Shown here piece by piece: positions 10,349 to 43,013 of a stretch of DNA of 43,243 nt. The DNA is from Dysgonamonadaceae bacterium (GTDB lineage: Bacteria > Bacteroidota > Bacteroidia > Bacteroidales > Azobacteroidaceae): assembly GCA_031289145.1 (NCBI GenBank), contig JAITQA010000122.1:1-43243 (forward strand). The letters are read 5' to 3'. The notes beneath the pieces were generated by a model that was not told the DNA's origin, did no database searches, and saw only the letters and a list, made by a program, of their open reading frames with translations. A program made the position numbers and the translations under genes. Numbering within the stretch: position 1 is the first letter of the stretch; each line of letters begins with the position of its first letter.

Positions 10349-10367
10349 TTAGATAAAAATAAGATAT

Positions 10368-13406: not shown

Positions 13407-14543
13407 ATGGAAAAAGTTTTTGTCAGCGGCTGTTATGATATGCTCCACAGCGGCCATGTGGCTTTTTTTGAAGAAGCCGCTACCTACGGTGATTTGTATG
13501 TAGGCCTCGGATCAGATAAAACTTTGTTTGAATTGAAAGCGAGAAGACCTTTTAACAATGAGCAGGAAAGGTTGTACATGGTGAAAGCCTTGAAATTCGT
13601 AAAAGATGCCTGGATTAACAGCGGTGGCGGTATCATTGACTTCTTAGCGGAAATAACAGCCTTGAAACCGGATATTTTCTTTGTGAACAGCGATGGGCAT
13701 AGTACGCTTAAAGAGGAATTGTGCAAAGACTTAGGAATTGAGTACGTAGTAAGTAAAAGACTTCCCCACGGCAGTCTTCCGGTTCGTTCTACTACCGCTT
13801 TGCGTGAAGAATGTAGAATACCGTACCGCATCGACTTGGCAGGCGGATGGCTTGATCAGCCTACAGTCAGCCGTTTATGTCCCGGTCCGGTTTTGACTAT
13901 TTCCATTGAACCCGATTATGATTTCAACGACAGGAGCGGGATGTCGACCAGTTCCCGTAAAAAAGCAATAGAGTTGTGGCAGGTGGATATTCCCATAGGC
14001 GACAGGGAAAAGTTGGCAAAGACGCTTTTTTGTTTCGAAAATCCGCCGGGTACACAATATGTCAGCGGTTCACAAGATTCCTTAGGCATCGTATTGCCGG
14101 GCCTGAACCGTTTGGATTACAATGGAGATTTCTGGCCTTCACAAATAGAGAATGTACTTGACAATGACCTGCTGACATGGATTGAGTCACATATCTGGTT
14201 GATTTCTTTGTATCCGCGCCGGGAAAATTACGACGTTTTGGCCAATACCAACATACAGCTGGAAAGTGTAAAAGCGCTCAGTGAGGCTGCCTGTTCATGT
14301 TGGGAAGCGCTGTTGGCGAAAGATCTCCGGAAATTCGGCGAGTCTGTGCGCAAAAGTTTTGAGGCCCAGATAAAAATGTACCCGAACATGGTCTCAAAAG
14401 ATATTTTCGAAGTTTTAGCTAAATATAAAAATCAAGCTTTGGGTTGGAAATTGAGCGGAGCCGGTGGTGGCGGATACCTGATATTTATAGGCGAAAAACC
14501 TTTGGAAAATGCCATACAGATAAGGATACGCAAAGGGGAATAA
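13407..14543 (+). CDS. Nucleotidyltransferase fused to a compact GHMP-type sugar kinase domain
   Basis: The 378-residue protein has two domains. Residues 1-135 are a cytidylyltransferase-like Rossmann domain with the HxGH motif at 14-17 (HSGH), KARRPFNNEQER around 44-55 and the distal RSTTALRE around 127-134. Residues 136-378 resemble GHMP kinases of the heptose-7-phosphate/fucokinase branch: RIDLAGGWLDQP at 141-152, a weak phosphate-binding loop candidate GMSTSS at 178-183, SGSQDSLG at 220-227, and the C-terminal glycine-rich KLSGAGGGGYLIF at about 348-360. The spacing between the first two kinase motifs is much shorter than usual for HddA-like kinases. It may make an NDP-activated sugar from a free or phosphorylated sugar. 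It is a single gene with its own promoter-like element; the sugar is unknown. Confidence 0.75.
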   Translation: MEKVFVSGCYDMLHSGHVAFFEEAATYGDLYVGLGSDKTLFELKARRPFNNEQERLYMVKALKFVKDAWINSGGGIIDFLAEITALKPDIFFVNSDGHSTLKEELCKDLGIEYVVSKRLPHGSLPVRSTTALREECRIPYRIDLAGGWLDQPTVSRLCPGPVLTISIEPDYDFNDRSGMSTSSRKKAIELWQVDIPIGDREKLAKTLFCFENPPGTQYVSGSQDSLGIVLPGLNRLDYNGDFWPSQIENVLDNDLLTWIESHIWLISLYPRRENYDVLANTNIQLESVKALSEAACSCWEALLAKDLRKFGESVRKSFEAQIKMYPNMVSKDIFEVLAKYKNQALGWKLSGAGGGGYLIFIGEKPLENAIQIRIRKGE

Positions 14544-20018: not shown

Positions 20019-20051
20019 AAAATTTTATCTTTGTTTTACTATTATTTTGTT

Positions 20052-27263: not shown

Positions 27264-29792
27264 ATGAGAAAGATATTGATTCTGATTTCCCTGCATTTTG
27301 CTGTTTCTCTACAGGCAAATGATTTGAATTATGGTCTTTATTTCAACTCGTATGAAAAGACAAGCAAAGACCGCACATCCTTGGTCTTGAATAATGGCGA
27401 GGCTTTGGCTATGAAAGACGGACTGACACTGTCCTTTGATTTATTTATCAGAAAAGAAATTGTATTTGGCTATATTGTACGCATTATCAGTAATTCCGGA
27501 GAAAGCGTTTCGTTGAATTTCAGCGCCGAAGAAAAGGACCACCGTTACCCCAGTTTGATTGTCAACGAAAACTTTTATCCTATCTCCAATAAAATTGAAT
27601 ATGAAAACTGGTTTCCGGTCAGTATAAGGTTTTCTCCCCGGAAAGATTCTTTATACTTGTCCTACGGTACCCTACAAAAATCGTTTGATATAAAGTTTAC
27701 TGACTGGAAAAATATTAAAATCTCATTTGGATGTTGCCCTTTCCCCGGATTTGGAACTATGGAACCGGCAGCAATGAATCTCCGGGATGTAAAAATCCGG
27801 GAGAAAGACAAACTAATACGGCACTGGGCATTAAAAGAGCATGATAATACGATTTGTTATGACCGGATAAACCATGTTCCGGCAACTACCCGAAATCCCT
27901 GCTGGATAATTGACAACCATACCAAATGGACTGAGATTTATACGGAAAAATTTGACTACAGCAACAACCCTCAATATACATTCGATGCAGAGAGAGAGCG
28001 CTTTTATATCGTGCCTGACGAAAAGACTGTACTTATATATAATCCTGTATCGAAAGAAGATAGCATTATTTATGTAAAAGAAGGATATCCGGCAGGAATC
28101 AGTACAAATGGACTGATTTATGACCATTTACATGATGAATTGGTTTCCTACAATTTAGATGACCAATCAATTTCCCGTTTCTCTTTCAAAGAACAGAAAT
28201 GGAGCAGAAAAACCTTATACAATGATGACACCCGCTTCTGGCATCATACTGCATCTATCAATAACACAGACTCTACGCTCGTCACGTTTGGCGGATACGG
28301 GTATTATAAATATAAAAATGACTTATTCAAAATAAACCTGAATGACAATACTTGGGAACGGAACAAGATTTTAACGATAACTCCCAGATATTCTTCGGCA
28401 TCCGTTATTGTAGACAATAAACTGTACATTTTTGGCGGACGCGGGTCGGAAACAAGTAAACAAGAAGTAAATCCTCAGTTTTATTATGATTTCTATTCGA
28501 TTGATTTGAATACATACGAAGCAAAACTGCTGTGGAAAACACAAACGGAACCGAATTTCCTGCCCTGTGGAAATCTGATTTACAATGCAAAAGATTCCTG
28601 TTTTTATATGTTGACAAATATAGAAAACGGCACTTTGTTTCAGATAAATGCAAATAATCCTCAGATTAAAAAAGTCTCACTCGGAATAAAAGCCTCACTT
28701 GAAATAAGAGAAGTGATAGAGGCCGATTTTCCTTTTTATACCTTGTTCTTTTCTCCCCGGCAAAAGAAAATTTATGCCTTGTTCTGCGGCAATTATAAAA
28801 TAGGAAAATCCAATATCACCTTATATGAAATTGAATACCCGCCACTCTCGCAAGAAGAAACACTCCAGAAAGCGCCGGAGCCAAATGGAAATTTCTTGTA
28901 CATAAGTATCCTTGCCGGATTAATTGCTTTGTCGGCAATCGCACTATTCTTTGTGAAGCAGAAAAAGAGAAAAGCAAATCCTGAAGCAACAATGGCAGTA
29001 GATAGAGACGCCGGGAAACGGATCGTTACTGCGAAGAAAACCATTAACAAAGACAAACAGCGTATCAACTTATTAGGCGGATTCAATATCCGGGGTAAGA
29101 ATGGAGAAAATATCACCTCCAATTTTACACCTATCCTGAAAAACTTACTATTATTGATCTTGCTATACAGTGAGATTGAAGAAAAAGGAATTAATGACAA
29201 AAAGATTGATAATCTGTTGTGGTATGACAAAGACAATAAGGCCGCTCGTAATAACAGGAATGTATCTCTGTCACGATTAAAGCTGTTGCTGGAAAACATA
29301 GGAGAGGTTACACTAATAAACAATGGCGGCTTCTGGAAGATTTCCTATGGAGAAAATACATTCTGCGATTACCATACCTCTTTTCAACTGATGAAAGCAA
29401 TCAAGCTAAACAGTAATGATAAACAAAATGTATTGGAATTGTTGGAATTATTAATGTATGGGCCGCTTCTGCCCTATACACAGTTCGATTGGTTAGACAA
29501 ATTCAAAAGTAATTATTCCAACGACGCCATCGACATTCTCTATAACCTGCTTTTGTCACAAGAAGTGATTAAAGATATCGAATTAGGCCTTCAAATTGCA
29601 GACACAATCTTTTTATTTGATTCCATAAATGAAGAAGCGCTTGGAATAAAATGCAGCATATTATATCATTCAGGCAAAAAAAGTTTAGCTAAAAGTGCAT
29701 ACGATACTTTTGCTAAAGAATATAAAATGCTATTAGGCGAAAATTTCAAATACTCTTTTTCGCAAGTTCTATCCAAAGTTTACAATGGTTAA
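27264..29792 (+). CDS. Transmembrane one-component regulator candidate: LamG/Kelch sensor fused to SARP-type wHTH-BTAD
   Basis: The 842-residue protein has a signal peptide (1-18), a LamG/concanavalin-like region (about 20-190), a Kelch-like propeller (about 230-530; repeats with LVTFGGYGYYKYKNDLFKIN and LYIFGGRGSE), one TM helix (about 545-565) followed by KQKKRK, and a cytoplasmic tail. The tail begins INLLGGFNIRGKNGENI at about 601 and contains KIDNLLWYDKDNKAARNN then VSLSRLKLLLENIG, which are the order and key residues of the OmpR/SARP winged-helix domain. The final 150 residues are helical, matching the BTAD position in SARP regulators. The inferred role is to sense an extracytoplasmic ligand, perhaps a glycan, and directly control transcription, most likely of the glycoside hydrolase operon that starts 149 bases downstream. 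No kinase or receiver domain is present. Confidence 0.75.
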   Translation: MRKILILISLHFAVSLQANDLNYGLYFNSYEKTSKDRTSLVLNNGEALAMKDGLTLSFDLFIRKEIVFGYIVRIISNSGESVSLNFSAEEKDHRYPSLIVNENFYPISNKIEYENWFPVSIRFSPRKDSLYLSYGTLQKSFDIKFTDWKNIKISFGCCPFPGFGTMEPAAMNLRDVKIREKDKLIRHWALKEHDNTICYDRINHVPATTRNPCWIIDNHTKWTEIYTEKFDYSNNPQYTFDAERERFYIVPDEKTVLIYNPVSKEDSIIYVKEGYPAGISTNGLIYDHLHDELVSYNLDDQSISRFSFKEQKWSRKTLYNDDTRFWHHTASINNTDSTLVTFGGYGYYKYKNDLFKINLNDNTWERNKILTITPRYSSASVIVDNKLYIFGGRGSETSKQEVNPQFYYDFYSIDLNTYEAKLLWKTQTEPNFLPCGNLIYNAKDSCFYMLTNIENGTLFQINANNPQIKKVSLGIKASLEIREVIEADFPFYTLFFSPRQKKIYALFCGNYKIGKSNITLYEIEYPPLSQEETLQKAPEPNGNFLYISILAGLIALSAIALFFVKQKKRKANPEATMAVDRDAGKRIVTAKKTINKDKQRINLLGGFNIRGKNGENITSNFTPILKNLLLLILLYSEIEEKGINDKKIDNLLWYDKDNKAARNNRNVSLSRLKLLLENIGEVTLINNGGFWKISYGENTFCDYHTSFQLMKAIKLNSNDKQNVLELLELLMYGPLLPYTQFDWLDKFKSNYSNDAIDILYNLLLSQEVIKDIELGLQIADTIFLFDSINEEALGIKCSILYHSGKKSLAKSAYDTFAKEYKMLLGENFKYSFSQVLSKVYNG

Positions 29793-29886
29793 GGCTATTT
29801 TTGCTTAAAAAGTAAAAAATCTGTTTTTAATACAATTTTAATAGATAAGTAATAATTGTTTTGATTATATTTTAATAATTAAAACG

Positions 29887-29894
29887 TACCTTTG
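29887..29894 (+). promoter_or_regulatory. -7 promoter element of the glycoside hydrolase operon
   Basis: TACCTTTG matches TAnnTTTG and is 47 bases before the ATG at 29942. A TTTG at 29860-29863 is 23 bases upstream, slightly wide, which could mean activator dependence. The AT-rich 149-base gap has no clear terminator. Confidence 0.5.
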
Positions 29895-29941
29895 GATTCG
29901 AAATAAAAAAATAATGCATTCATAAACTTGAATTTTTTTTC

Positions 29942-32900
29942 ATGAAAACAATTACTAAATTAATAACGGCTGTATGTCTTTGTTGTATGTCTTGGAATAT
30001 TTCAGGCGCTTCTTCCTATAAAGAGAACTTTCATAATTCGGCGATACCTCTTTCCGTTATCGGCCGTGGAAACTGCCGGGTAGAAGACGGCGTATTAAAA
30101 TCAAAAGGAGCATATACCTGTTTTGGAGATAGAGAATCGGCAAATTACCGGATAACATTTAAGGCGAGGGCGCCTAAAGATGCCGGACAAGTTCAGATAT
30201 GGGCGGGCTTCCGGGCAAATAATCGTTTCGACCGTTACGTCTTCGGGATGAAAGGCGGATTGCAGGATGACCTTTATCTCAGTCGCATGGGATACATGGG
30301 CGCTGACGAATTGTTGGATTTATCTCCCCTTGATTTTCATCCGGAAGTCGGCGAGTGGTATTATTTTAAATTAGAAGTTTGTGGAAACCGGATACGAATC
30401 TTCCTCAATGATGAAACCTTGCCGAGGATAGATGTAGTAGATGAAGACAGCCGTTATGCTCCTTCCGGACAGGTGACATTGGGCGGAGGATGGATTGAAA
30501 CCGAATTTGATGATTTAACCATCGAACCCCTTGCTGCCGATGCATTGGCTAATATTCCGGTTGCCCTGTACACATTGACCGTTTCTCCCCGTGAGAAAGA
30601 AATGAAACGGAAAGCGGAACGAGCGGGCTATCAACCGGTGTCGGTCGGTAAGCTGGCTATTGCACGAACGGAAATCGCATTGAACGGCAATTGGTTATTC
30701 TTGCCCGATTATGAAGTAAAGGAAACCTTGCCCGCTAATCCGGAAACGAATGACGAGGCTTGGCATGTGATGAATGTACCTGATTTCTGGAATCCCATCC
30801 GCATCTGGTTGCACGGAGAAACGATGAACCGGAACAAGTTCCCCAAGGGAGTCTCCGATACCTATTACCAAAAAGAAACGGAACGTTGTGTATCCTATAC
30901 TTTCGACTACAAGAAAACCAAGGCGGCATGGTACCGCCACTGGTTGGAACTTCCTGCCGGAATTGAGAATAAGACTGCCGAACTAATCTTTGACGCCGTT
31001 TCCAAAATGGCCGATGTATATGTGAACGGAACGCTGGTGACAACCCATATCGGTATGTTTGGTGAGGTTCGCGCCAACATTTCCAGTCATTTGAAGCCCG
31101 GAAAGAACCTGATTGCCGTTTTAGTGACCCGCGATTATGTCAAAGACATTGAGGAAGCCGATAAGGTGGTCGACGTTTCCGTGACTGTTCCCGTAACCAA
31201 CAAGATGTTGAAAGACATCGCCCACGGATTCTATGGCGGCGACCCTGCCGGGATATGGCAGCCTGTCGCCTTGGTCATAACCAATCCTGTTAAGATAGAA
31301 GACGTATTCATCCGTCCCTCCTTAGATGGAGCCTCGTTCGATGTGACGGTCAGGAACTATTCAAATACCAAGAAGAAATTCAATCTCCGGACAGCTATCT
31401 TCGAAGAAGAAACGGACAATTTGTTCCACCGGGAAGAATCGCTATCGGGAATCGAACTGAAAGCCGGTGAAGAAAAACAGGTCACTTATACCATCCGGAA
31501 CCTGAAACCTCGTTTGTGGACGCCCCATTCTCCCAATCTGTACGATTTCACCTTCACCCTGCTATCCGGCAATGAAGAAGAAGATGTGCTGAATATTCGT
31601 TCCGGCTTCCGAACATTTGAATCGAAAAACGGATTACTCTACCTGAACGGGAAACCCTATTGGTTGCGCGGCGGCAATCATACGCCGTTTGCGCTTGCCC
31701 CAAACGACGAAACACTTGCCCATAGTTTCTACCGGATCATGAAAGAAGGGAATATCGACGTTACACGTACCCATACAACACCTTACAATAAATCATGGAT
31801 CAATGCCGCCGATGAAGATGGCATCGGAATCAGCCATGAAGGTACATGGCCTTGGCTGATGATCAAAAGTTCCATGCCCGAATCGTCTTTGATTGATCGC
31901 TGGGCGGATGAATATTTGAGCCTGATCCGGAAATACAGAAACCATCCGTCTATCTTTTTCTGGACAATCAACAATGAGATGAAGTTCTACGATAACGAAC
32001 CCGACCTGGAGAAGCGCAAACAAAAGATGACCATCATTTCGGATGTGGTGAAACGGATGCGGCAGATAGACCCCACACGCCCGATATGCTTTGACTCAAA
32101 CTACCGTCGTCAGGAAAAGAAACAGGGAACCGCTTTCTATCAGGATATAGATGATGGAGATATTGATGATATTCACTCCTACGTTAATTGGTATGACCAT
32201 ACCATCTTCAAACAGTTCAACGGTGAATTTCAACGCGACCACCGAAATGAAGGGCGTCCTTTGATCAGCCAAGAAATGTCAACCGGTTATCCCAACAATG
32301 AGACCGGTCACCCCACCCGTTTTTATACCTTGGTGCATCAAAACCCACAAACACTGGTTGGTAACCAGGCGTATGCCTGGGGAAATCCAGATGCTTTCCT
32401 GAATGTACAGGCTTTTATCACCGGCGAACTGGCAGAAGCCTTACGCCGTTCCAACAATAAAGCTTCGGGGATACTGCATTTTGCCTTGCTTACATGGTTC
32501 CGTAATGTTTATGATGCACAAACCATTGAACCCTATCCAAGTTATTACGCGATACAACGCGCCTTGCAACCCGTTCTCGTTAGCGCAGAAATCTGGGGGC
32601 GCCATTTTTATGCCGGAGAAAAATTACCTGCCCGTATTTGTATTGTCAACGACCTCGAAAGCGGGAAAGACCTGCAACCGGCTATTTTGCATTGGCAGAT
32701 TGAAACCGGAAACGGACAAGTAATCGCTTCAGGAAAAGAAAAAGCGCCGGTAGTAAAGCATTACAGCCGGGAATGGATAAGTCCGGAAATTAAAATACCT
32801 GCCGATATTGGAGGAAACAAGGTAAATGCCAAATTAAAATTGCGCTTGACGGAAGCCGGAAAACAAGTTTCGGCAAACGAATACGAAATCTTACTGGCTG

Positions 32901-33565
32901 AAAAAGATTGGGTGCAAGTCGTTGATGCGAAAAAGAAAATCGTTTTGGTGGATAAGGACAATATCGCACCGGTATTGGATTTCATCAATATCCGGCACGA
33001 AACAGTTCCCGACATTGCCTCGGCATTGAAAGCGAAAGCGGATTTGCTTATTGTATCCGGTCTTGGCAAAGAAGGAGATGCTTCTGACGTCAAAGCGCTT
33101 AGAGCATACATAGAGAAAGGCGGAAAGACGCTTTTTCTTCAGAGTGAAGAAACGGCAAAAGCGATTTTCCCGGAATATATAACCGGCTGGATAGTACCGA
33201 CCGAGGGCGATATTGTCAACATGGAAATACCGGAATCGCCTGTCTTTGATGAGATTGATTTATTGGAACTTCGCTATTTCAACAACAATAAGCGGGAAAT
33301 ACCTACCGTATGCACTGCCGCATTGCAGGTTAACCGGAGCGAGAACTTGCAGGAATTGGCCCATCAAACGAAGATACATGGCTACATCAACGGCGACATG
33401 GATGAGCGGATTGACTATGTGAAGACGATAAAAGGTTTTCCAATTATCAAGATAAAAGAAGGGCAAGGTGCGTCTCTGATTTCCACCATGTCATGCGAGA
33501 AGTCATTGACCGATCCCATTGCTGCCCGTTTATTAGCCAATATGGTAAAAGAGATGCTGAATTAA
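29942..33565 (+). CDS. Multidomain GH2 glycoside hydrolase with N-terminal LamG-like and C-terminal amidotransferase-like domains
   Basis: The 1207-residue secreted protein has a signal peptide (about 1-23), a DUF1080/LamG-like beta-sandwich (about 25-197), a GH2 sugar-binding domain (about 235-430), an Ig-like domain (about 440-555), a TIM barrel (about 560-870) and a C-terminal extension whose last part (about 990-1200) resembles a glutamine-amidotransferase-like fold (ADLLIVSGLGKEGDAS). Catalytic residues fit GH2: acid/base Glu679 in WTINNEMKF and nucleophile Glu778 in LISQEMSTGY. GH2 includes beta-galactosidases, beta-glucuronidases, beta-mannosidases and others; the sugar cannot be read here. 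It is first in the six-gene operon, 7 bases before the GH43 gene. Confidence 0.88.
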   Translation: MKTITKLITAVCLCCMSWNISGASSYKENFHNSAIPLSVIGRGNCRVEDGVLKSKGAYTCFGDRESANYRITFKARAPKDAGQVQIWAGFRANNRFDRYVFGMKGGLQDDLYLSRMGYMGADELLDLSPLDFHPEVGEWYYFKLEVCGNRIRIFLNDETLPRIDVVDEDSRYAPSGQVTLGGGWIETEFDDLTIEPLAADALANIPVALYTLTVSPREKEMKRKAERAGYQPVSVGKLAIARTEIALNGNWLFLPDYEVKETLPANPETNDEAWHVMNVPDFWNPIRIWLHGETMNRNKFPKGVSDTYYQKETERCVSYTFDYKKTKAAWYRHWLELPAGIENKTAELIFDAVSKMADVYVNGTLVTTHIGMFGEVRANISSHLKPGKNLIAVLVTRDYVKDIEEADKVVDVSVTVPVTNKMLKDIAHGFYGGDPAGIWQPVALVITNPVKIEDVFIRPSLDGASFDVTVRNYSNTKKKFNLRTAIFEEETDNLFHREESLSGIELKAGEEKQVTYTIRNLKPRLWTPHSPNLYDFTFTLLSGNEEEDVLNIRSGFRTFESKNGLLYLNGKPYWLRGGNHTPFALAPNDETLAHSFYRIMKEGNIDVTRTHTTPYNKSWINAADEDGIGISHEGTWPWLMIKSSMPESSLIDRWADEYLSLIRKYRNHPSIFFWTINNEMKFYDNEPDLEKRKQKMTIISDVVKRMRQIDPTRPICFDSNYRRQEKKQGTAFYQDIDDGDIDDIHSYVNWYDHTIFKQFNGEFQRDHRNEGRPLISQEMSTGYPNNETGHPTRFYTLVHQNPQTLVGNQAYAWGNPDAFLNVQAFITGELAEALRRSNNKASGILHFALLTWFRNVYDAQTIEPYPSYYAIQRALQPVLVSAEIWGRHFYAGEKLPARICIVNDLESGKDLQPAILHWQIETGNGQVIASGKEKAPVVKHYSREWISPEIKIPADIGGNKVNAKLKLRLTEAGKQVSANEYEILLAEKDWVQVVDAKKKIVLVDKDNIAPVLDFINIRHETVPDIASALKAKADLLIVSGLGKEGDASDVKALRAYIEKGGKTLFLQSEETAKAIFPEYITGWIVPTEGDIVNMEIPESPVFDEIDLLELRYFNNNKREIPTVCTAALQVNRSENLQELAHQTKIHGYINGDMDERIDYVKTIKGFPIIKIKEGQGASLISTMSCEKSLTDPIAARLLANMVKEMLN

Positions 33566-33572
33566 ACACATC

Positions 33573-35138
33573 ATGAAGAAGCTCCTGCGCCTGTTTTTAT
33601 TACTGTCGATATACAACCCGGCCCCGGTTTCCATGCTATTCGCTCAAAATGTGGAACAAACCTATCGTAATCCGGTTATATCCGGCGATTTTCCGGATCC
33701 GACCCTTATCCGGGCAGGTGAAGATTATTATGCTGCGGGAACAAGTTCCGATTTTGCACCCAACTATCCCGTGTACCATTCCCGTGACCTGATAAACTGG
33801 GAGCGAATCGGCGCTATATTCAATGAAACGCCCGAATGGATAAAAGGAGATTGCTGGGCGCCCGAATTATTCTACAATAATGGAACTTACTTTGCATATT
33901 ATACTGCTAAGAGGAAAGGAGATAACATCTCCTGCATTGGTGTTGCCACGACAAACGATATCACAAAAGGTTTTGAAGACCACGGCATACTTATCGAATG
34001 GGGAAAAGAAGCAATAGACGCCTTTGTCTTCAAAGATGAAGATGGGCAATTGTACATTACCTGGAAAGCCTACGGTTTGGACAACAGCCGTCCGGTAGAG
34101 ATTTTGTGTTCGGAATTGTCCGAAGACGGCTTATCCCTTGTCGGAAAACATTTCTCGCTGACCAATCACCAAAAGGCCTGGGTCGGCGATGGTGAAGAAG
34201 GGCAATGTTTAGTGAAACACAAGGATTATTATTATTTATTTTATTCCGTAGGAGGTTGCTGCGACAACAAATGCAATTACCGGGTACATGTCGCCCGTGC
34301 CAAAAGTTTGAAAGGAGATTGGGAACAATACGGGAAAAACCCGGTACTGTATGGTGGCGGCCTGTGGAAGTGTTCGGGGCATGGTACCGTGGTGCAATCC
34401 CCTGATAACCGGTATTTCTATCTTTATCACGCTTATCATGCGTATGATTTTGAATATATTGGTCGGCAGGGATTACTTGATGAATTGATATGGGACGAAA
34501 AAACCGACTGGCCTTATTTCCGGTACGGGAATATCCCGTCGGCGCAAGCTGAAATGCCGTTTGAAAATACTATTCAGAAAAAAGACCGCTGGTTTTACGA
34601 CAATTTCAGGTCGCTTGAAAAAGACTGCTATTGGCAATGGGATATGAATTTACCACAACCGCAAATTTCAAAAACCGATGGTGTATTAAGCCTGACAACT
34701 CCCGAATCGGGATTTTCTTTCCGGGGAATCAATCCCCTAACAGGCAATTACCGGATGGAGACATTGGTTGCAAATAAGGGTGAAAATCTGAAAGGCTTAT
34801 GTGTTTACGGAAATGCCTCTAACCTATTGGCATGGGGAATGGAAGGAACAAATCTTACCTTATATAAATACGAAAATAATATTAAAATGAAGTTGTTTTC
34901 CCAATATATGAACACTTTTAACGTTTATTTAAAAGTTGAATCGGTCAATGCGCGTTTTTTTCGCTTCTATTGGTCGGAAAACCGGGAAGATTGGCATTCC
35001 TCCCAGAAATCAGTGGAAGTAATTGACGGACATTTTCTTCCTCAATGGGGAAAAGGAATACGTGCAGGTTTGATTGTCGAAAACAAAGAAGAGGATTATA
35101 CAGGGAAATTCTCTTATTTCTCGTTGGAAAATGAATAA
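33573..35138 (+). CDS. GH43-family glycosidase (arabinofuranosidase/xylosidase type)
   Basis: The 521-residue protein has a signal peptide (about 1-24), a five-bladed beta-propeller (about 28-325) and a C-terminal beta-sandwich (about 335-521). The three GH43 acidic residues are visible: general base Asp42 in GDFPDPT, Asp149 in EAIDAFVFKDEDG, and general acid Glu209 in GDGEEGQCLVKHKDYYY. GHGTVVQSP holds a histidine commonly found at the propeller centre. GH43 enzymes release L-arabinose, D-xylose or D-galactose from plant polysaccharides by inversion. A cysteine-rich GGCCDNKC follows the active-site strand, which is unusual. Its 3' end is adjacent to the esterase gene. Confidence 0.9.
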   Translation: MKKLLRLFLLLSIYNPAPVSMLFAQNVEQTYRNPVISGDFPDPTLIRAGEDYYAAGTSSDFAPNYPVYHSRDLINWERIGAIFNETPEWIKGDCWAPELFYNNGTYFAYYTAKRKGDNISCIGVATTNDITKGFEDHGILIEWGKEAIDAFVFKDEDGQLYITWKAYGLDNSRPVEILCSELSEDGLSLVGKHFSLTNHQKAWVGDGEEGQCLVKHKDYYYLFYSVGGCCDNKCNYRVHVARAKSLKGDWEQYGKNPVLYGGGLWKCSGHGTVVQSPDNRYFYLYHAYHAYDFEYIGRQGLLDELIWDEKTDWPYFRYGNIPSAQAEMPFENTIQKKDRWFYDNFRSLEKDCYWQWDMNLPQPQISKTDGVLSLTTPESGFSFRGINPLTGNYRMETLVANKGENLKGLCVYGNASNLLAWGMEGTNLTLYKYENNIKMKLFSQYMNTFNVYLKVESVNARFFRFYWSENREDWHSSQKSVEVIDGHFLPQWGKGIRAGLIVENKEEDYTGKFSYFSLENE

Positions 35139-35154
35139 CTTAATTATAAATATC

Positions 35155-36606
35155 ATGAATATGAGTCAAGTGAAAAGAACATTTGTAGCGCTTTGTTTTA
35201 CATTTTCAATACTGAATCTTTCTGCGACGGTAAAACTTCCGACAGTACTCGGTGATAACATGGTTTTACAACAGCAATCGGATGTAAAATTATGGGGGGA
35301 AGCCCAAGCCAATGCAATCGTAAAAGTTAAACCTTCCTGGGACAAAAAAACACATTCGGTGCAAAGTGATAAGGAAGGGAAGTGGTTATTAACGGTTCCG
35401 ACCCCGGCGGCAGGCGGGCCGTATGAAATCAATATAAGTGACGGGAAAGAGCTGATTTTGAAGAATATTCTTATCGGTGAAGTCTGGTTTTGTTCCGGAC
35501 AGTCCAATATGGAAATGCCGGTGAAGGGTTTCGACCGGCAACCGGTTGAGGGAAGTAATTCGGTAATTGCCAAAGCTAAGCCATCCACCCCCATACGAAT
35601 ATACACCACCGATTCGCAAGAGGGAAAATGGGTTCGCCAATTCAATAAGCAACCGCAATCCGACTGTGTAGGCAAGTGGTTGGAAAATTCATCTGAAAAC
35701 GCAGCCAATACGAGCGCTGTCGCTTACTTTTTTGCACAATACTTGCAGGAAGTGTTAGACGTTCCGGTGGGTATAATTATTTCGTCATGGGGTGGTTCCA
35801 GAGTTGAAGCCTGGATGAGTACAGCGGCTTTGGCGCCTTTCCCGGAGATTGATTTATCCATTTTATCGAATGAAGAGGAGGTGAAAAATCCAACGGCGAC
35901 ACCTTGTGTTTTATTCAATGGCAAAATTGCACCGCTCATTCCGTTTACCATCAAAGGATTTCTGTGGTATCAGGGAGAAAGTAATCGGGATAATGCCCCT
36001 CGTTACAGGAAATTAATGGCGGCATTTGTAAAAGACTTGAGACACAAATGGAACATAGGAGATTTCCCTTTCTTCTATGTCCAGATAACTCCTTATAACT
36101 ATGATGGCGCCAATCTTACATCATCTGCAAAATTGCAGGAAGCCCAAATGAAAAATATGGAAGACATTCCCAATGCCGGAATGGTAACAACTTTGGATAT
36201 AGGAAACCCTGTTTCAATACATCCGAGCAATAAGAGAACAGTTGGAGAACGCTTGGCGTATTGGGCATTAGGGAATACGTACGCTAAGAAAGGATTCGGA
36301 TATAAACCGGCGATTTACAAATCAATGGAAGTAGTTGACGGAAAAATATACATTAATTTTGAGAATGCGCCGCGAGGCCTGTCTCCTATGTGGACTGATT
36401 TGAAAGGATTTGAAATTGCCGGAGAAGATAAAGTTTTCTATCCTGCCAAAGCGGAAATTGAAACGAAATCGGCCAGGCTGGCTGTTTCGAGCGAAAGCGT
36501 TGCCGTGCCGGTTGCCGTGCGGTATGCCTATAAAAACTATGTGGAAGCGAGCATATTCGGAGTAGACGGAATCCCCGTTTCTCCATTCAGAACAGATAAT
36601 TGGTAA
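35155..36606 (+). CDS. Secreted SGNH esterase, sialate O-acetylesterase type
   Basis: The 483-residue product (from MNMSQVKRTF) has a signal peptide (about 1-24), a beta-sandwich (about 27-105) and an SGNH hydrolase domain typical of SASA-family carbohydrate acetylesterases: nucleophile Ser117 in WFCSGQSNMEMP, SSWGGSRVEAWMS, WYQGESNRDNAPRY, and His356 in SIHPSNKRTVGERLAYW. The residue two before the His is Ser where many relatives have Asp (DIHP). It would remove acetyl groups from sugars before glycosidases act; substrates of this family are not restricted to sialic acid. The start is placed after the GH43 stop at 35138; longer in-frame starts overlap GH43 and precede the signal peptide. Confidence 0.88.
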   Translation: MNMSQVKRTFVALCFTFSILNLSATVKLPTVLGDNMVLQQQSDVKLWGEAQANAIVKVKPSWDKKTHSVQSDKEGKWLLTVPTPAAGGPYEINISDGKELILKNILIGEVWFCSGQSNMEMPVKGFDRQPVEGSNSVIAKAKPSTPIRIYTTDSQEGKWVRQFNKQPQSDCVGKWLENSSENAANTSAVAYFFAQYLQEVLDVPVGIIISSWGGSRVEAWMSTAALAPFPEIDLSILSNEEEVKNPTATPCVLFNGKIAPLIPFTIKGFLWYQGESNRDNAPRYRKLMAAFVKDLRHKWNIGDFPFFYVQITPYNYDGANLTSSAKLQEAQMKNMEDIPNAGMVTTLDIGNPVSIHPSNKRTVGERLAYWALGNTYAKKGFGYKPAIYKSMEVVDGKIYINFENAPRGLSPMWTDLKGFEIAGEDKVFYPAKAEIETKSARLAVSSESVAVPVAVRYAYKNYVEASIFGVDGIPVSPFRTDNW

Positions 36607-36617
36607 AAAAAATACGT

Positions 36618-38453
36618 ATGAAAAAGTCAACATTATTCATCATCACATTGATTGCAATTACGAGTGTTTCTTACGCCCAATCTACTGATTGGCAATTGGT
36701 GGAAGGAAAGATTACTACCCCTTGGTCATCAACAATTGACCCTGAAAACCCATTACCGGAATATCCTCGCCCGCAAATGCAACGGAAATCCAATTGGGTA
36801 AGTCTCAACGGATTATGGGATTATGCCATCCGGAAGGTGGATGAAACGCCTTCTGCAATCAACGACGGGAAAATACTTGTCCCTTTCGCCGCAGAATCAG
36901 CCCTTTCAGGCGTAGGAAAAACCGTAAGCAAAGAAAACAACCTTTGGTATAAACGGTCTTTTACCCTACCCAAAGAGGCAAAAGGAAAAAAAATCCTGCT
37001 TCATTTCGGAGCTGTGGATTGGCGAACCGAAGTGCATATTAACGGGAAGTCGGCAGGCATACATGAAGGCGGTTTCGATCCGTTCTCATTCGATATAACT
37101 TCGCTAATCAAAGGGAAAGAACAGGAATTGATTGTGAAAGTCTGGGACCCCACCGATGAAGGATTTCAACCCAGGGGAAAGCAAGTAAATGACCCACAAA
37201 GCATTTGGTACACTCCTGTAACGGGGATATGGCAGACGGTTTGGTTGGAATTTGTTCCGGAAACCCACATTGTCTCTTTCAAACAAACACCGGATATCGA
37301 CAACCAACAATTGACGCTGGCTATTCTTACCGCCAACTTGCAGTCCGGAGATGTCGTGAAAATAGCAGCTTGGGAAAACGATAAAAAAATAGCGGAACAA
37401 CTCGTTAATGCACCTTTCCAAGCAGCATTAAAAATTAAGAATCCCAAACTGTGGTCACCCGCTAATCCTTTCCTTTACGATTTGAAAATCACGATAGAGA
37501 GAAAAGGAAAAGTGATAGACGAAGTAAAAAGTTATTTCGCCATGCGCAAAATAGCCATACAGCCGGATGCAACCGGAATTCAACGAATCCTGCTCAACAA
37601 CGAATTTGTATTTCAATATGGACCTTTAGACCAGGGATGGTGGCCGGACGGATTGTACACCGCCCCAACCGATGAAGCCCTGCAATTTGATATTGCCAAA
37701 ACTAAAGAAATGGGCTTCAATATGATTCGTAAACATATCAAAGTAGAACCGGCCCGCTGGTATTTCTATTGTGATTCAATCGGCATATTGGTATGGCAAG
37801 ATATGCCCAGCGGAGACATTAGCGGAAACAGGTGGCAAGCGCAACCGGGTATACTTTCTATCGAAAAAGGACAGGATAAAATACGTTCTGCACAATCGGA
37901 AGCGGTTTATCGCAAGGAATGGAATGCCATTACGGACGCTTTGCACAATCATCCCTGTATCGTTCTATGGATTCCTTTTAATGAAGCATGGGGACAATTC
38001 AAAACAGGCGAAATAACCGAATGGACAATGCAAAAAGACCCTTCCCGCTTAGTCAACAGTGCAAGTGGAGGTAGTTTTTTTCCGGTAGGTCACATCGTTG
38101 ACCTGCATCAATACCCTGAACCGGCTATGCCGCACCCGGATCTTTTTGGCGCAAAACAAGCCCTTGTATTAGGCGAATTTGGCGGATTGGGATTACCGTT
38201 GACAGGACATGTATGGCAGGAAAAAGACAATTGGGGCTACCAAAGTTTCAAAAATGAAGAAGAACTCTTAAAGCGATACGTGCAGTTTATATCCGATTTA
38301 AAACAGTTGATAGACAAAGGTTTATCGGCGGCAGTGTATACGCAAACCACCGATGTGGAAATAGAAACAAACGGACTGATCACTTATGACAGGAAAGTGG
38401 TCAAATTGTCCGAAGCGAAGTTATGGGAAGTACATCAAAAACTATATAAATGA
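36618..38453 (+). CDS. Secreted GH2 glycoside hydrolase (three-domain)
   Basis: The 611-residue protein has a signal peptide (about 1-19), a GH2 jelly-roll (about 40-215), an Ig-like domain (about 220-310) and a TIM barrel (about 315-611). Acid/base Glu456 lies in WIPFNEAWGQF and nucleophile Glu520 in LVLGEFGGLGLP. It is shorter than classical LacZ and ends with the barrel, like many short GH2 proteins in Bacteroidota polysaccharide loci. Specificity is not visible. It begins 11 bases after the esterase and its stop overlaps the next start by four bases (ATGA), so translation is probably coupled. Confidence 0.92.
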   Translation: MKKSTLFIITLIAITSVSYAQSTDWQLVEGKITTPWSSTIDPENPLPEYPRPQMQRKSNWVSLNGLWDYAIRKVDETPSAINDGKILVPFAAESALSGVGKTVSKENNLWYKRSFTLPKEAKGKKILLHFGAVDWRTEVHINGKSAGIHEGGFDPFSFDITSLIKGKEQELIVKVWDPTDEGFQPRGKQVNDPQSIWYTPVTGIWQTVWLEFVPETHIVSFKQTPDIDNQQLTLAILTANLQSGDVVKIAAWENDKKIAEQLVNAPFQAALKIKNPKLWSPANPFLYDLKITIERKGKVIDEVKSYFAMRKIAIQPDATGIQRILLNNEFVFQYGPLDQGWWPDGLYTAPTDEALQFDIAKTKEMGFNMIRKHIKVEPARWYFYCDSIGILVWQDMPSGDISGNRWQAQPGILSIEKGQDKIRSAQSEAVYRKEWNAITDALHNHPCIVLWIPFNEAWGQFKTGEITEWTMQKDPSRLVNSASGGSFFPVGHIVDLHQYPEPAMPHPDLFGAKQALVLGEFGGLGLPLTGHVWQEKDNWGYQSFKNEEELLKRYVQFISDLKQLIDKGLSAAVYTQTTDVEIETNGLITYDRKVVKLSEAKLWEVHQKLYK

Positions 38454-40057
38454 AACGACAAATCTTATTGTGCCTGCTGCTGTCCAATATACTGTTTCTT
38501 TTTGCAGAAGAGAAAAAAGAGAACGTTACGGACGTCAGCCCTTTGGATTTGACATTTCAACGCTTATCCGTTCGAAGGTTTATTTTTTCAAACAATATCA
38601 ATCTTTGCGAATTGCTGCCTGCCGAAATTGTCGCTTTCAAATCAATGCATCCTGCATTTGTCCTTTCGGATAACGATAAGCCCCAAAATGACGAACGTTT
38701 CCGCGCTAAAATCGAACAAGGAAAATTGGTTTTGGAAGCCGACAAAAATAGCAATCCCACAAGCATTTATGTAGGAGGTGTTAATCCCTACGCCACTTAT
38801 GAAATAGACATAGCTTCTCTTTCCCATAACGACAATCCGGAAATAGGGCTTGAATGGGCGCGTTTGGGTTTGCGCGACCGGATTCAGGTGATGGCTCAAT
38901 CTTCCCCAAAAACCGAAGGTATTTTCCTGAGAATTTATAAAGATGCCCGGTTAATAAAGGAAGTACAATACAGTCAATCGTTGCCGGAAGGGGCTTTTTC
39001 CCTCAAAGTCCAACTCTACGGACGTTCCTTGGGAATATTTATCACACAATACGGCGAAACAAAATACATCGGTCATCTTCCCGTTAAAGAACACTTCGGG
39101 GATGTTTTGGATTTCCGTAACTCGGCTACAGCTGCCGCATCTACGTTCAACTTAGTCTCCAATCAGAAAGGTAAAGTTTTGATTAACAGCGCATTTTCCT
39201 ATCTTTCTCCCGGTATCGGACAGGCTGATATACGTTTGATTTCCTATGAAGATTTAAGTCCTTGTCTGGAAGATGGAAGACTTTGGTTTACTTTCAGTTG
39301 TCGGGGATTAGATACGCCACAATCCGTACAAGGCGTTTTGAGCCTGAATCCCGCTGTCTTTGATGTGAAATTTGAAGGCATGATTGTTTTTGACCATGGC
39401 GACGGCTTACTTCGCAACGATTATGCCGCGCATCTTTTCTACGACCGGCAGGCGAAAGAATGGCGTGCTTATGCCTGTGATTTCGGAGGAAGCGCCAACA
39501 AGGAGGGGCGGGCAAAAACCGGATTGATAACCGCTTCATCGCCGAAAGACCCGCGCCGCGGATTTTCTGTTATGCGGGCAGCCCGTATTGAGCCTGATTT
39601 TATGGAAGGGCACAACGAAGACCCTTGTATCTTTTATGACGGTGATGCAAAAAAATGGAGGCTATTAACAAGCGCTTTTGTCACGCAGAATATTGTATCC
39701 CGCACTTATGAATCGGATACATGGAACGGCAAATTTACACCTGTCGCCTTGCCTATCGCCACTAATTCAACGGGAACTTCCATTCAGAAGATAGGAGACC
39801 GTTACTATGCTTTTATGGGAGGGAAAGGGGAATTGCGCGTCCATTCTTATCCGGATTTGGAAGAATTGGGAGAATTGAATCTGAATTTACAGCCTCATTG
39901 GCCGGCTCCGGCCGGGCGTATCTGGGCAAGTCTTGTTCCGCTTCCGGAAGGATATCCGTTCAGATACGTACTTCTGACAATGGACAGACCCAATTTTCCC
40001 GGAGTCGTCGGCCCTAACTGGAGCTACGGCGCTTTGTATTTTTATGGTGCAAATTAA
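38450..40057 (+). CDS. Secreted beta-propeller protein of unknown function, possible glycosidase
   Basis: The 535-residue protein has a signal peptide (about 1-19) and no family I can name. The N-terminal part (about 25-215) looks like a beta-sandwich. From about 220 it has blade-like repeats typical of five-bladed glycosidase propellers: VFDHGDGLLRNDYAAHLFYD (about 312-331), AKEWRAYACDFGG, GHNEDPCIFYDGDAKKWRLL (about 386-405), GDRYYAFMGG, and a final PFRYVLLTMDRPNF. Acidic residues at blade starts (DHGDG, NEDP) resemble catalytic positions in GH43/GH117/GH130-like propellers. Its place between two GH2 genes, with a four-base overlap with the first, supports a role in the same glycan pathway. 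Confidence 0.7.
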   Translation: MKRQILLCLLLSNILFLFAEEKKENVTDVSPLDLTFQRLSVRRFIFSNNINLCELLPAEIVAFKSMHPAFVLSDNDKPQNDERFRAKIEQGKLVLEADKNSNPTSIYVGGVNPYATYEIDIASLSHNDNPEIGLEWARLGLRDRIQVMAQSSPKTEGIFLRIYKDARLIKEVQYSQSLPEGAFSLKVQLYGRSLGIFITQYGETKYIGHLPVKEHFGDVLDFRNSATAAASTFNLVSNQKGKVLINSAFSYLSPGIGQADIRLISYEDLSPCLEDGRLWFTFSCRGLDTPQSVQGVLSLNPAVFDVKFEGMIVFDHGDGLLRNDYAAHLFYDRQAKEWRAYACDFGGSANKEGRAKTGLITASSPKDPRRGFSVMRAARIEPDFMEGHNEDPCIFYDGDAKKWRLLTSAFVTQNIVSRTYESDTWNGKFTPVALPIATNSTGTSIQKIGDRYYAFMGGKGELRVHSYPDLEELGELNLNLQPHWPAPAGRIWASLVPLPEGYPFRYVLLTMDRPNFPGVVGPNWSYGALYFYGAN

Positions 40058-40109: not shown

Positions 40110-43013
40110 ATGAAACAAAAATTAACACTCATGCTAATCTTATTGTCCGTTTTACCAAGCGTTTACGGGCAGGGCGTCTTTTTTAATCGTGATTTCTCTC
40201 CGGCGGAGGGCTTGACAATTCCACAGGAATCTCCTTACCGGGAAGAAATTTGTTTGAACGGTTACTGGGAATTGCAACTCAAATCGCTCCCTGCCGGATG
40301 GGAAAGCGGAACAGGTATCGCTCCGGAACTTACCTTGCCGGAAGCTACGCGATGGGAGAAAGTGAAAATCAAAATTCCCTCCCCAATCAATGTGAATGAC
40401 TGGGGAAGAGGGCTTAATGTAGGTGAGGGGACAAAAGAACCTTACGCCCCAAGTTCGGTATATTACCCAAGTTATCCGAAAGCATGGGCAAGCGCCGAGA
40501 TGGGCTGGCTGAAAAAGTCTTTTGAAGTTCCACAAATCCTGACCGGCAAAAGAATAATTCTGCACTTTGAAGCCGTAGCCGGAGAATGTATCGTATTAAT
40601 CAACGGGAAAGAAGCGGGTCGTAATTTTGATTCTTTCCTGCCGTTTGAAATCGACATCACGGAGCATGTTCGGACAAGTCAATCCAACGAATTGCTGGTA
40701 GGAGTACGCCACAGCAAGTTGTTTGACAAAAAACATCCTGGCTATCCGAAATTCGGCGCAACCTATCCCCCCGGATCAAACTTGGATAATATACTGGGTA
40801 TCTGGCAGGACGTTTTTTTATTTATCGTTCCGGAATTTCGAATAACGGATGTATTTGTTCAATCCTGGCTGGATAGAAATGAACTTGAGTTGGCAGTGCT
40901 GCTTACCAATCAATCCGGACAAAAGAAAAAAATCCGCTTGGAAGGTGATATCAAGGAGTGGATAAATCAATCGGCTAAAGCGAATGTATTGGATGCTCCC
41001 GAAATCAATTGGCGTTTGGGAAACAGCGTTTTAACCGTCTCTTCCGAGGAAATAGAGATAAAACCCGGAGAAACCCAGAAGGTGACTATCCGGCAAAAAG
41101 TTCAGGCGGAATTAAAAAAATGGAGTCCTTCCAATCCCAATCTATACACATTGTTATTGACCGTACAGGATAAAAAAGACAGGTATGATTGCAAAGCCAC
41201 ACGTTTCGGCTGGCGGCAGCTGACAATCGAAGGAAAAGATTTTCACTTGAATGGAGAAAAAATACAATGTTTCGGCGATATACAACATCCGTTCAGCGCT
41301 TATATCTGTTCGAGGCGGTTTGCCTGGGCATGGTATATGATGATCAAAGACTTCGGAGGCAATGCAGTACGTCCTCATGCCCAACCTTGGCCGCGAGTAT
41401 ATTATGATTTAGCCGATGAAATGGGTTTGATGGTCTTGGATGAAACAGCCCTCTTCGGTAGTTCCATTCGCTTGAATCTGGAAGAAGATATTACCTGGGA
41501 ACGCTCTCAAGATCATTTGGACAGGTTAATCCTGCGAGACCGGAATCATCCCTCCGTAATTGGCTGGAGCGCCGGAAACGAAATGTTTGCGATAGCCCTA
41601 TTAAATAAACCCGAGAAAAAAGTCGCTGATATTTGGGATGATAAATTAGTTAAACTTGCTTTGAGCGCCAAACAATTGGACCCGACCCGCGATTTCCTGA
41701 CATTGGATGGAGACAAAGATATGGATGAAAGGCTTCCGGTTTGGAGTAAACATTTTGGGCATGACCTGCGGGTAAAAGAATTGCCGGAAAAGGCAGAAAA
41801 ACCTTTAATTGTAGGAGAAAGCGGCGCAACCTATTACGGAAGACCCGAACAACTGTATCATTTTGCAGGCGACAAAGCCTTTGAATCCTATCATGGGCGA
41901 AGTGAAGCATTGGCCATAGACGTTTATCAAAATGCCGTACAGATGGCGCGTCCTCATCTGGCTTATTTCTCCCCTTCGGAGGTTTCCTGGTTCGGGATTG
42001 AGCATCAAAATCTGGGTTATCACGATTATTCCCGTTTGCCAAATATCCGGGATGGTATATTTGCCGGAAAACCCTACCGGGAAGGAAAACCCGGATACCA
42101 ATACGAACGGATACCGCCTTATGTCAGCACTTTCAATCCGGGTTTGGACCCGGATTTGCCACTCTACAAGCCATTACCGATGTTCGAAGCGCTGAAAGCC
42201 GCCTTGTCCCAAGCAAAACCACAGGCTTGCAAATGGGATAGCTATAAGGAAATCTTGCCACCCAACCAAGCGGACTATCCCGCAGTAAAATACAAAGAAG
42301 CTTATTTCGTCGGGAACGAAAAAGGTTTATTGGCTGATTTTCTCCGTCAGAGCGGATTGAATATCCAATCCAATCTGAAGACGCCGAATTTTGCCGTTAT
42401 TGATGCGGAAGATATCAGTCCGAAAGACCTCAAAAAAGCAGCGGAAAAGATACAGGCAATCGTAAAAAAAGGAGGATTGATTTTAGTGATGTCTGCCGGT
42501 AATGCAATCGACGCTGTGTTGAATACCTTTTTGCCGGCTTCCGTTCAATTAACCGACAGGCAAGCAACGGCGCTGGAAAATAATACGGCGTCCGCCTTGG
42601 GAAAATACTTCAATCTTCCGGGCCTTTACTTTGCGGAGATGGATGGAGATCGTCACATCCTCAAACGGGGCTTATCCGGAGAACTGATTGATAAAGGAAC
42701 GGTTGTTTTACAAGCGTCCCGCACCGATTGGTCTTTATTCAACAACAATCCTGAAAATAAAAAATGTGCACAAATAGTTCTTTACGAGCACATAGAGAAG
42801 CCACAAGGAGCAGCTTTGGTCACCTGTCCATGGGAGAAAGCCGACTTATCCATAGCGGTCATTGATTACCGGTTAAATACCAAACAGACACAACAGTTCT
42901 GGAAAAATCTTTTCGCAGCCATGGCGATAGACAATACATTCTTTTCTGCCGGAGAATCGCAGGAAAAGCAAAAGAAAGAACACGATTTGTTGCTGGACGG
43001 CCCGGTCAATTGA
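40110..43013 (+). CDS. Secreted GH2 glycoside hydrolase with C-terminal amidotransferase-like domain
   Basis: The 967-residue protein has a signal peptide (about 1-20), a jelly-roll domain (about 35-240), an Ig-like domain (about 245-370), a TIM barrel (about 375-690) and a C-terminal region (about 715-960) with VIDAEDISPKDLKKAAEKIQ and GGLILVMSAGNAID that resembles the amidotransferase-like extension of the first GH2 in this operon. Acid/base Glu491 is in WSAGNEMFA and nucleophile Glu570 in LIVGESGATYYG. The barrel contains the usual HLNGEKIQCFGD and GGNAVRPHAQPWP strands. It is the last gene of the operon. The target sugar is unknown. Confidence 0.88.
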   Translation: MKQKLTLMLILLSVLPSVYGQGVFFNRDFSPAEGLTIPQESPYREEICLNGYWELQLKSLPAGWESGTGIAPELTLPEATRWEKVKIKIPSPINVNDWGRGLNVGEGTKEPYAPSSVYYPSYPKAWASAEMGWLKKSFEVPQILTGKRIILHFEAVAGECIVLINGKEAGRNFDSFLPFEIDITEHVRTSQSNELLVGVRHSKLFDKKHPGYPKFGATYPPGSNLDNILGIWQDVFLFIVPEFRITDVFVQSWLDRNELELAVLLTNQSGQKKKIRLEGDIKEWINQSAKANVLDAPEINWRLGNSVLTVSSEEIEIKPGETQKVTIRQKVQAELKKWSPSNPNLYTLLLTVQDKKDRYDCKATRFGWRQLTIEGKDFHLNGEKIQCFGDIQHPFSAYICSRRFAWAWYMMIKDFGGNAVRPHAQPWPRVYYDLADEMGLMVLDETALFGSSIRLNLEEDITWERSQDHLDRLILRDRNHPSVIGWSAGNEMFAIALLNKPEKKVADIWDDKLVKLALSAKQLDPTRDFLTLDGDKDMDERLPVWSKHFGHDLRVKELPEKAEKPLIVGESGATYYGRPEQLYHFAGDKAFESYHGRSEALAIDVYQNAVQMARPHLAYFSPSEVSWFGIEHQNLGYHDYSRLPNIRDGIFAGKPYREGKPGYQYERIPPYVSTFNPGLDPDLPLYKPLPMFEALKAALSQAKPQACKWDSYKEILPPNQADYPAVKYKEAYFVGNEKGLLADFLRQSGLNIQSNLKTPNFAVIDAEDISPKDLKKAAEKIQAIVKKGGLILVMSAGNAIDAVLNTFLPASVQLTDRQATALENNTASALGKYFNLPGLYFAEMDGDRHILKRGLSGELIDKGTVVLQASRTDWSLFNNNPENKKCAQIVLYEHIEKPQGAALVTCPWEKADLSIAVIDYRLNTKQTQQFWKNLFAAMAIDNTFFSAGESQEKQKKEHDLLLDGPVN

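Follow-up and report, generated by a model that had tools for sequence, protein, structure and literature searches.

A candidate one-component membrane regulator of glycan genes in Bacteroidota, joining a Kelch sensor to a SARP-type DNA-binding domain

The window analysed here is a 43,243-nt stretch from a Dysgonamonadaceae bacterium (GCA_031289145.1, contig JAITQA010000122.1, forward strand). An open reading frame (ORF) at 27264-29792 on its plus strand, which runs from an ATG without internal stops, encodes an 842-residue protein with Kelch repeats, one transmembrane helix and a SARP-type tail, referred to below as the Kelch-SARP protein. Its domains, its gene neighbourhoods and the DNA upstream of those genes make it likely that this protein is a one-component transmembrane transcriptional activator of glycan genes. 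Probably, too, it belongs to a class of SARP activators that is spread through the phylum, embedded in the membrane and equipped with interchangeable sensors, each for its own glycan, and that shares a single operator-promoter grammar (four TTAAT-like repeats in steps of 11-12 bp, 10 nt, then TAnnTTTG); in the open-licence papers that we searched this class is so far undescribed. In this literature we found no paper on a Kelch regulator or sensor in Bacteroides or Bacteroidetes and, judging by titles and the beginnings of abstracts, nothing on point for SARP in Bacteroidota. An earlier note on this DNA had read the gene as a sensor fused to a SARP-type DNA-binding domain; that observation is confirmed, and the interpretation placed on it, that the protein would control the adjacent glycosidase operon, is supported.

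The predicted topology, from domain matches and hydropathy, is that of a one-component transmembrane regulator: a sensor, a transmembrane segment and a cytoplasmic DNA-binding domain (Table 1). The family alignment comprises 27 of 33 loci, with the window protein (L001) included and L003, L013, L017, L018, L031 and L033 excluded. The single transmembrane helix and the basic stretch after it, both described in the earlier note, are present in the window protein, and all 27 aligned sequences have a hydropathy peak followed by a net-positive stretch; two (L024, L025) have one extra, weaker peak beyond the N-terminus. The signal peptide that the note had also described stands in part: the N-terminus of the window protein is hydrophobic by inspection and falls below the hydropathy threshold, which is passed by 14 of the 27 homologues. 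The Kelch half of the proposed Kelch/LamG sensor was borne out, since Pfam's Kelch_KLHDC2 model matches with an E-value of 7.6e-16, several single-repeat Kelch models also pass the cut-off, and Kelch models match in 27/27 homologues. The propeller probably spans about residues 222-527, and when the whole-family profile was searched against PDB the best 60 of 89 matches aligned in the Kelch part only. As to the LamG half, Pfam gave no match in the window protein at E<=1; Laminin_G_3, at E<=0.1, is seen in four of the 27 homologues (best 6.5e-6). Neither Pfam nor NCBIfam matched a kinase, receiver or AraC domain in the Kelch-SARP protein at E<=1, in agreement with the claim that it acts without kinase or phosphorelay. 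The transmembrane helix is joined to the winged helix-turn-helix (wHTH) by a linker of some 30 residues with poor conservation.

What is the tail, the 247 residues beyond this linker? In the window protein itself Pfam detects neither Trans_reg_C nor BTAD, and on the 27 homologues, at E<=10, it finds BTAD in six (best 0.0055) and Trans_reg_C in two (best 0.0029). Unrelated Pfam models match the tails equally well or better (Anoct_dimer in three homologues, best 4.8e-5), so the Pfam matches, all below threshold, carry no weight by themselves; accepted BTAD proteins of Bacteroidota were therefore gathered and aligned, and the profiles compared. Against a wHTH+BTAD profile built from 19 of 20 Pfam-accepted BTAD proteins of other Bacteroidota, the tail profile scored a probability of 99.2 (E 3e-19, 239 columns). 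Taken half by half, the wHTH-wHTH comparison gave 94.6 and the BTAD-BTAD comparison 98.1, against 0.1 for the crossed pairs; ten column-shuffles gave at most 0.9, reversal of the profile 1.2 and the family's N-terminal part 0.2. On this profile-profile comparison, which settled the question, the tail is a SARP-type wHTH+BTAD domain, as the earlier note had proposed. A PDB search with the tail profile returned chance matches only (saposin-like and others, E 0.2 or worse), and a BTAD search of the window's whole genome pointed to a single place, the tail of a paralogue, at 18.4 bits (cut-off 22.1).

The wHTH might still have decayed and lost DNA binding, leaving a scaffold or signalling partner in the membrane; that Pfam misses the tail in the window protein alone would fit this. 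The tail is, however, better conserved than the protein as a whole (mean column identity 54% versus 42%) and the operator described below occurs in association with the family, so that we consider decay highly improbable.

SARP-type domains are known chiefly from antibiotic regulators in soil bacteria. The SARP family of Streptomyces (AfsR, PimR and others) has the same order of wHTH then BTAD (PMC10936776, PMC5930380). The AfsR paper places the SARP domain at the N-terminus, either by itself or with extra domains after it (PMC10936776), whereas that of the Kelch-SARP protein is C-terminal and is preceded by a signal sequence, a LamG-Kelch sensor and a transmembrane helix. Other Bacteroidota wHTH-BTAD proteins (L199-L218, n=20) share the domain with the family and differ in the rest: 18 have no hydropathy peak, L210 and L217 have one weak internal peak each, and none has an N-terminal signal plus a sensor transmembrane helix. 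By inspection, these proteins carry the domain alone or linked to TPR or receiver domains.

The window's genome holds five Kelch-SARP copies. At the level of genus and family, 22 of 45 genomes gave matches at E<=1e-10, with up to seven copies each; at the level of order 16 of 295 did (15 of 244 of high quality), the window's own genome being included in both counts. Relatives occur across Bacteroidota: in Candidatus Symbiothrix, Candidatus Azobacteroides and metagenome-assembled genomes (MAGs) of Dysgonamonadaceae, all termite-gut lineages; in the human-gut species Bacteroides finegoldii, B. faecis and Parabacteroides goldsteinii, and in B. congonensis and Dysgonomonas; and in Sphingobacterium, Tamlana fucoidanivorans and Flammeovirga. 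For the proteins of B. faecis and B. finegoldii there are Kelch matches and weak BTAD matches (E 0.064 and 0.0087, respectively). Two proteins, L134 (479 aa; L134:9182-10621) and L139 (511 aa; L139:5059-6594), have the SARP tail and no Kelch match, and are possible natural sensor variants; in L134 a transmembrane helix and a short LamG-like part are visible by inspection.

Gene neighbourhoods were compiled for 81 distinct regulators out of 85 hits, identical copies and a truncated duplicate (L110|12) having been dropped; ORFs came from a simple script and neighbour proteins were trimmed to 600 aa. Pfam tallies cover the 25 commonest families, of 77 downstream, 86 upstream and 103 in control windows. 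The next downstream gene (n=79) is of SusC type in nine cases and belongs to glycoside hydrolase (GH) families in many others: GH99 in six, GH95 in four, and GH92, GH43 and GH2 in three each. The adjacent upstream gene (n=77) is SusC-type in 8-9 cases, GH3 in seven and GH92 in 5-6, whereas among 80 genes from control windows in regulator-bearing genomes SusC-type and SusD genes each occurred three times and three GH families once each. Local profiles, applied within six genes of the regulator, were derived from regulator-side proteins and are biased toward that side; with them, 81 loci were compared with 20 control windows. GH92 was found at 22 loci versus 0 windows, the GH2 type of the window at 18 versus 1, a GH99-like type at 22 versus 1, GH95 at 17 versus 2 and GH3 at 12 versus 2. 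Any of these five types occurred at 51/81 loci versus 4/20 windows, which bears out the earlier suggestion that homologues adjoin glycoside hydrolase genes; SusD occurred at 31/81 versus 4/20, and any GH, SusC or SusD gene at 68/81 versus 11/20. As a separate observation, a CotH domain is found in 5 of the 77 upstream genes, those of L066 and L069 among them, and that of L069 also has a Por secretion tail. The proteins encoded immediately upstream of the regulator on the same strand in L066, L067, L069 and L070 are related to each other and possibly have a surface function.

Alignment of intergenic DNA from related loci revealed TTAAT repeats spaced by about one helical turn. To put numbers on this, 61 loci, left after thinning at 60% identity and taken with regions no shorter than 95 bp, gave 244 promoters, and 20 hand-chosen windows in nine regulator-bearing genomes gave 141 control promoters of equal A+T. 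TTAAT pairs near regulators peak at 11 bp (49), 12 bp (16), 22 bp (18) and 23 bp (17), with 0 to 9 at every other spacing from 5 to 39 bp (9 at 20 bp, 1 at 21 bp); the controls had none at 11 bp and one at 12 bp. TTAAT density was 7.0 per kb near regulators versus 4.0 in controls. Among the 244 promoters, 50 had at least two repeats chained at 11-12 bp; from dinucleotide shuffles 4.05 would be expected, and 1 of 141 controls had such a chain. The distance from TTAAT to TTTG has an exact 19-nt peak (22 times, with 4 on either side and 0 in controls) and further peaks at 31 and 42. A position model of four repeats plus TTTG was then trained on half of the loci and tested on the other half, with the maximum of the same controls that set the training thresholds as cut-off, and with less similar but related regulators possibly present in both folds. 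In this held-out test the best of the 141 controls was exceeded by 61 of the 244 promoters, which come from 44 of 60 loci, as against 2 and 0 for mononucleotide shuffles of the regions held out. By local profiles 41 of these 61 sites front SusC (16), GH2 (6), GH92 (6), GH3 (6), GH99-like (3), GH95 (3) or CotH (1) genes, and 20 front unclassified ones. Only TTTG was required by the model; the TA (T 0.93, A 0.67) of TAnnTTTG, the -7 consensus of Bacteroidota (PMC7366714), emerged unimposed.

The pattern resembles that of SARPs, whose direct repeats lie about one helical turn apart with the last near the -10/-7 element; the published repeats are 11 or 22 bp apart and the 3' repeat is 8 bp from the -10 element (PMC10936776). 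The family's direct repeats show the same two spacings close to the same element, and differ in being AT-rich (TTAAT), in taking steps of 11 or 12 bp, in being modelled as four, and in ending 10 nt from the TAnnTTTG box. We consider the operator case strong for the family. Repeats of paralogues within one genome resemble each other. Autoregulation was considered as a general rule and rejected, with only 3/28 and 0/24 regulator promoters above the control maximum.

For the promoter in the window the case is moderate. The earlier note had singled out 29793-29941 as the region to which the protein might bind, and this region does contain a promoter with phased direct repeats of the family kind, in degenerate form; the -7 box lies 47 nt from the start codon at 29942. 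As a held-out locus the window promoter scored 23.3, above the control maximum, and a model made from other sites scored the intergenic region at 24.0 (control maximum 15.1); none of 1000 dinucleotide shuffles reached the window score, the best being 20.5. Of the five loci in the window's own genome three have a held-out site (the window, L109 and L111).

Do such sites occur away from regulators? A further model, R1, was built from 36 sites, none from genomes G000, G301, G209 and G074, and was run on these four regulator-bearing genomes and on 18 in which earlier searches had found no regulator, the latter being unmatched in base composition. The 15.5-bit cut was set after viewing the list, and 150 candidates were scored per genome, so that counts are lower bounds. 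At this cut there were at least 25 sites in the four regulator-bearing genomes versus at least three in the 18 others (at E<=0.05, at least 25 versus at least four). SusD genes are present in 14 of the 18 regulator-free genomes (up to 61 per genome) and absent from four; because the 14 have SusD and yet few strong sites, strong sites do not mark glycan loci in general. Of the 25 strong sites listed, 12 lie within 10 kb of a regulator, versus 0.73 expected if these were evenly spread. Eight of the other 13 are at or just before carbohydrate genes: two for GH3, one for GH3 plus a sub-threshold GH99 part, and one each for GH2, GH92, a SASA esterase, a SASA-like protein below the cut-off, and GH43, where the ORF start overlaps the site. 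Two more precede genes for large proteins (one with an InlB repeat, one with CARDB and a secretion tail) and three have no clear target. The three sites in regulator-free genomes comprise two inside ORFs and one before an MMPL-type gene. One stretch of a regulator-bearing genome in which no regulator was found (L219; G000:C140:24000-38761) has three operator-like sites, two of them just before GH3 and GH99/GH3 genes, which are candidate trans targets. These distributions suggest that distant glycan genes are regulated in trans, and the predicted regulon would then be wider than the adjacent operon.

Several observations weigh against the activator interpretation. SusC, at 48/81 loci versus 8/20 control windows, barely discriminates between regulator neighbourhoods and controls, and in cross-validation no promoter rose above the control maximum at 16 of 60 loci. 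At E<=10 the R1 counts overlap, with 17-40 sites per regulator-bearing genome (n=4) versus 3-35 per other genome (n=18). Exact-letter patterns (three repeats, or two plus TTTG) were also found in regulator-free genomes and in the reversed pattern; being unspecific genome-wide, they were replaced by the position model. When tail residues were compared for co-variation with the fifth letter of the repeat, the best p was 0.006 over many columns, which is nothing convincing. The operator in the window is degenerate, with two of its five repeats imperfect, and R1 gives it just 7.4 bits, which ranks second in the window. The highest-ranking R1 match, of 10.3 bits at 19996-20034, fronts no gene on its own strand and was taken as chance.

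In function the nearest known regulator is SusR, likewise a single protein of the membrane, whose sensor faces the periplasm and whose DNA-binding part is in the cytoplasm. Similarity was not detected between the Kelch-SARP family and a DUF6377 protein beside a susA-like gene (L233; probability 0.7, single sequence versus profile), which, from this gene order, we take to be the probable SusR of Bacteroides faecis. The best reading is that the Kelch-SARP protein works like SusR, with undetectable homology. SusR has been described as a membrane protein with this layout and with glycan genes as targets, so that a kinase-free single-protein membrane regulator of such genes is not unprecedented (PMC3878776); the earlier note itself names SusR-type regulators. 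Hybrid two-component systems (HTCS) of Bacteroidota are also alike in having an extracytoplasmic sensor, a transmembrane segment, a cytoplasmic DNA-binding domain, glycan genes as targets and direct-repeat sites; they differ in their kinase, receiver and AraC domains, none of which was matched in the Kelch-SARP protein.

Could the repeats then serve one of these regulators, or an extracytoplasmic function (ECF) sigma factor, while the Kelch-SARP protein has some other role? The literature describes HTCS, SusR-like proteins and ECF sigma factors as regulators of such genes (PMC3878776, PMC10766802), and a 2024 review of hemicellulase regulation gives HTCS, ECF and catabolite repression as common and has no mention of kelch or SARP (PMC10766802). 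The repeats, moreover, were discovered through their proximity to Kelch-SARP genes; the motifs published for HTCS likewise consist of direct repeats, with about 20-21 bp between the two sites (PMC3878776), near the 22-23 bp peak seen here; and a receiver domain occurs in 2 of the 79 downstream genes, as counted among the 25 commonest families. The main spacing is nevertheless 11-12 bp, with few TTAAT pairs at 20 or 21 bp, and this phasing is the binding pattern reported for SARPs (PMC10936776, PMC5930380). For SusR-like regulators the published spacing is 67 or 77 bp (PMC3878776); the pairs analysed here, at spacings of 5-39 bp, fall mainly at 11-12 bp. The scarcity of strong sites in the regulator-free genomes, most of which have SusD, also argues against another regulator of glycan loci, and we think this alternative improbable.

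For an activator of the kind preferred here, the following mechanism can be proposed. The periplasmic LamG-Kelch part would bind a glycan fragment, and binding would alter the protein's association within the membrane. The cytoplasmic SARP domain, whether it stays anchored in the membrane or is set free, would then bind in tandem to TTAAT-like direct repeats, whose computed sites at 11-12 bp steps lie on one face of the helix. Because the last repeat is just upstream of the -7 box, the bound protein would occupy the -33 position and, by analogy with AfsR in Streptomyces, might recruit RNA polymerase. The target in the window would be the six-gene operon from 29942; elsewhere the predicted targets include regulator-adjacent glycosidase and SusC genes, and remote glycosidase and esterase genes.

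Release could take the form of regulated proteolysis, in which the glycan signal leads to cleavage near the membrane and a soluble SARP domain. This is a sub-case of the activator mechanism and compatible with it. The poorly conserved linker between transmembrane helix and wHTH would suit such cleavage, and in the excerpts of the SARP literature available to us SARPs are not described as membrane proteins; against it, SusR is described as residing in the membrane, with its DNA-binding domain in the cytoplasm (PMC3878776), and protease families are absent from the 25 commonest neighbour families (of 77 downstream and 86 upstream). We regard proteolysis as rather unlikely. Repression is conceivable as well, since repeats in the -33 region could allow a bound protein to block the polymerase. 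The AfsR SARP domain, however, activates from the same position (PMC10936776), and the last repeat leaves the -7 box free with its exact spacing kept, which makes a repressor quite improbable.

If the proposed phylum-wide class is real, Bacteroidota would have one more general way to control glycan genes, alongside HTCS, SusR-like proteins and ECF sigma factors, and one whose targets could be read from the genome. Glycan genes set which polysaccharides gut and environmental Bacteroidota use. The family supplies a recognisable protein and a searchable operator, so that regulons would become predictable, and it would link the SARP domain directly to a sensor outside the inner membrane.

The six genes from 29942 form a putative operon (Table 1). 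Relatives of the first, with 55-69% identity over 584 to 1186 residues, lie no more than six genes from distant regulators in G301, two Sphingobacterium genomes, Bacteroides sp. 51 and an Alistipes MAG.

Table 1. Features of the Kelch-SARP gene, the candidate operator-promoter and the putative operon (window coordinates)
Feature	Position	Strand	Basis or remark
N-terminal signal sequence, residues about 1-18	27264..27317	+	inspection of sequence
LamG-like domain, residues about 19-215, limits approximate	27318..27908	+	Laminin_G_3 in homologues
Kelch repeats, residues 301-423	28164..28532	+	Pfam
Single transmembrane helix, residues 546-564, then basic KQKKRK	28899..28955	+	hydropathy
Winged helix, OmpR/SARP type, residues 596-699	29049..29360	+	comparison with profile of Pfam-accepted wHTH-BTAD proteins
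BTAD-like helical domain, residues 700-842	29361..29789	+	profile comparison; weak Pfam matches in homologues
Candidate operator, steps 11, 11, 12, 11	29827..29876	+	repeat pattern, position model
Repeat TTAAT	29827-29831	+	repeat pattern
Repeat TTAAT	29838-29842	+	repeat pattern
Repeat GTAAT	29849-29853	+	repeat pattern
Repeat TTGAT	29861-29865	+	repeat pattern
Repeat TTAAT	29872-29876	+	repeat pattern
-7 promoter box TACCTTTG	29887..29894	+	10 nt past last repeat; consensus TAnnTTTG
GH2-family glycosidase, first operon gene	29942..33565	+	Pfam
GH43-family glycosidase	33573..35138	+	Pfam
SASA-type carbohydrate esterase	35131..36606	+	longest ORF from TTG 35074; first ATG 35131
GH2-family glycosidase	36618..38453	+	longest ORF from TTG 36600; first ATG 36618
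535-aa protein, signal-like N-terminus, no Pfam/NCBIfam matches	38450..40057	+	4-nt overlap with preceding gene
GH2-family glycosidase	40110..43013	+	Pfam

Elsewhere in the window, 7115-11888 holds a SusC/SusD pair (a TonB-dependent receptor with Plug, and SusD_RagB) followed by a dicarboxylate symporter; it is preceded by a zinc carboxypeptidase and an AAT-type acyltransferase, and no regulator was recognised among the neighbours scanned. At 13407-14543 a 378-aa protein fuses a cytidylyltransferase-like domain to a GHMP-kinase C-terminal domain.

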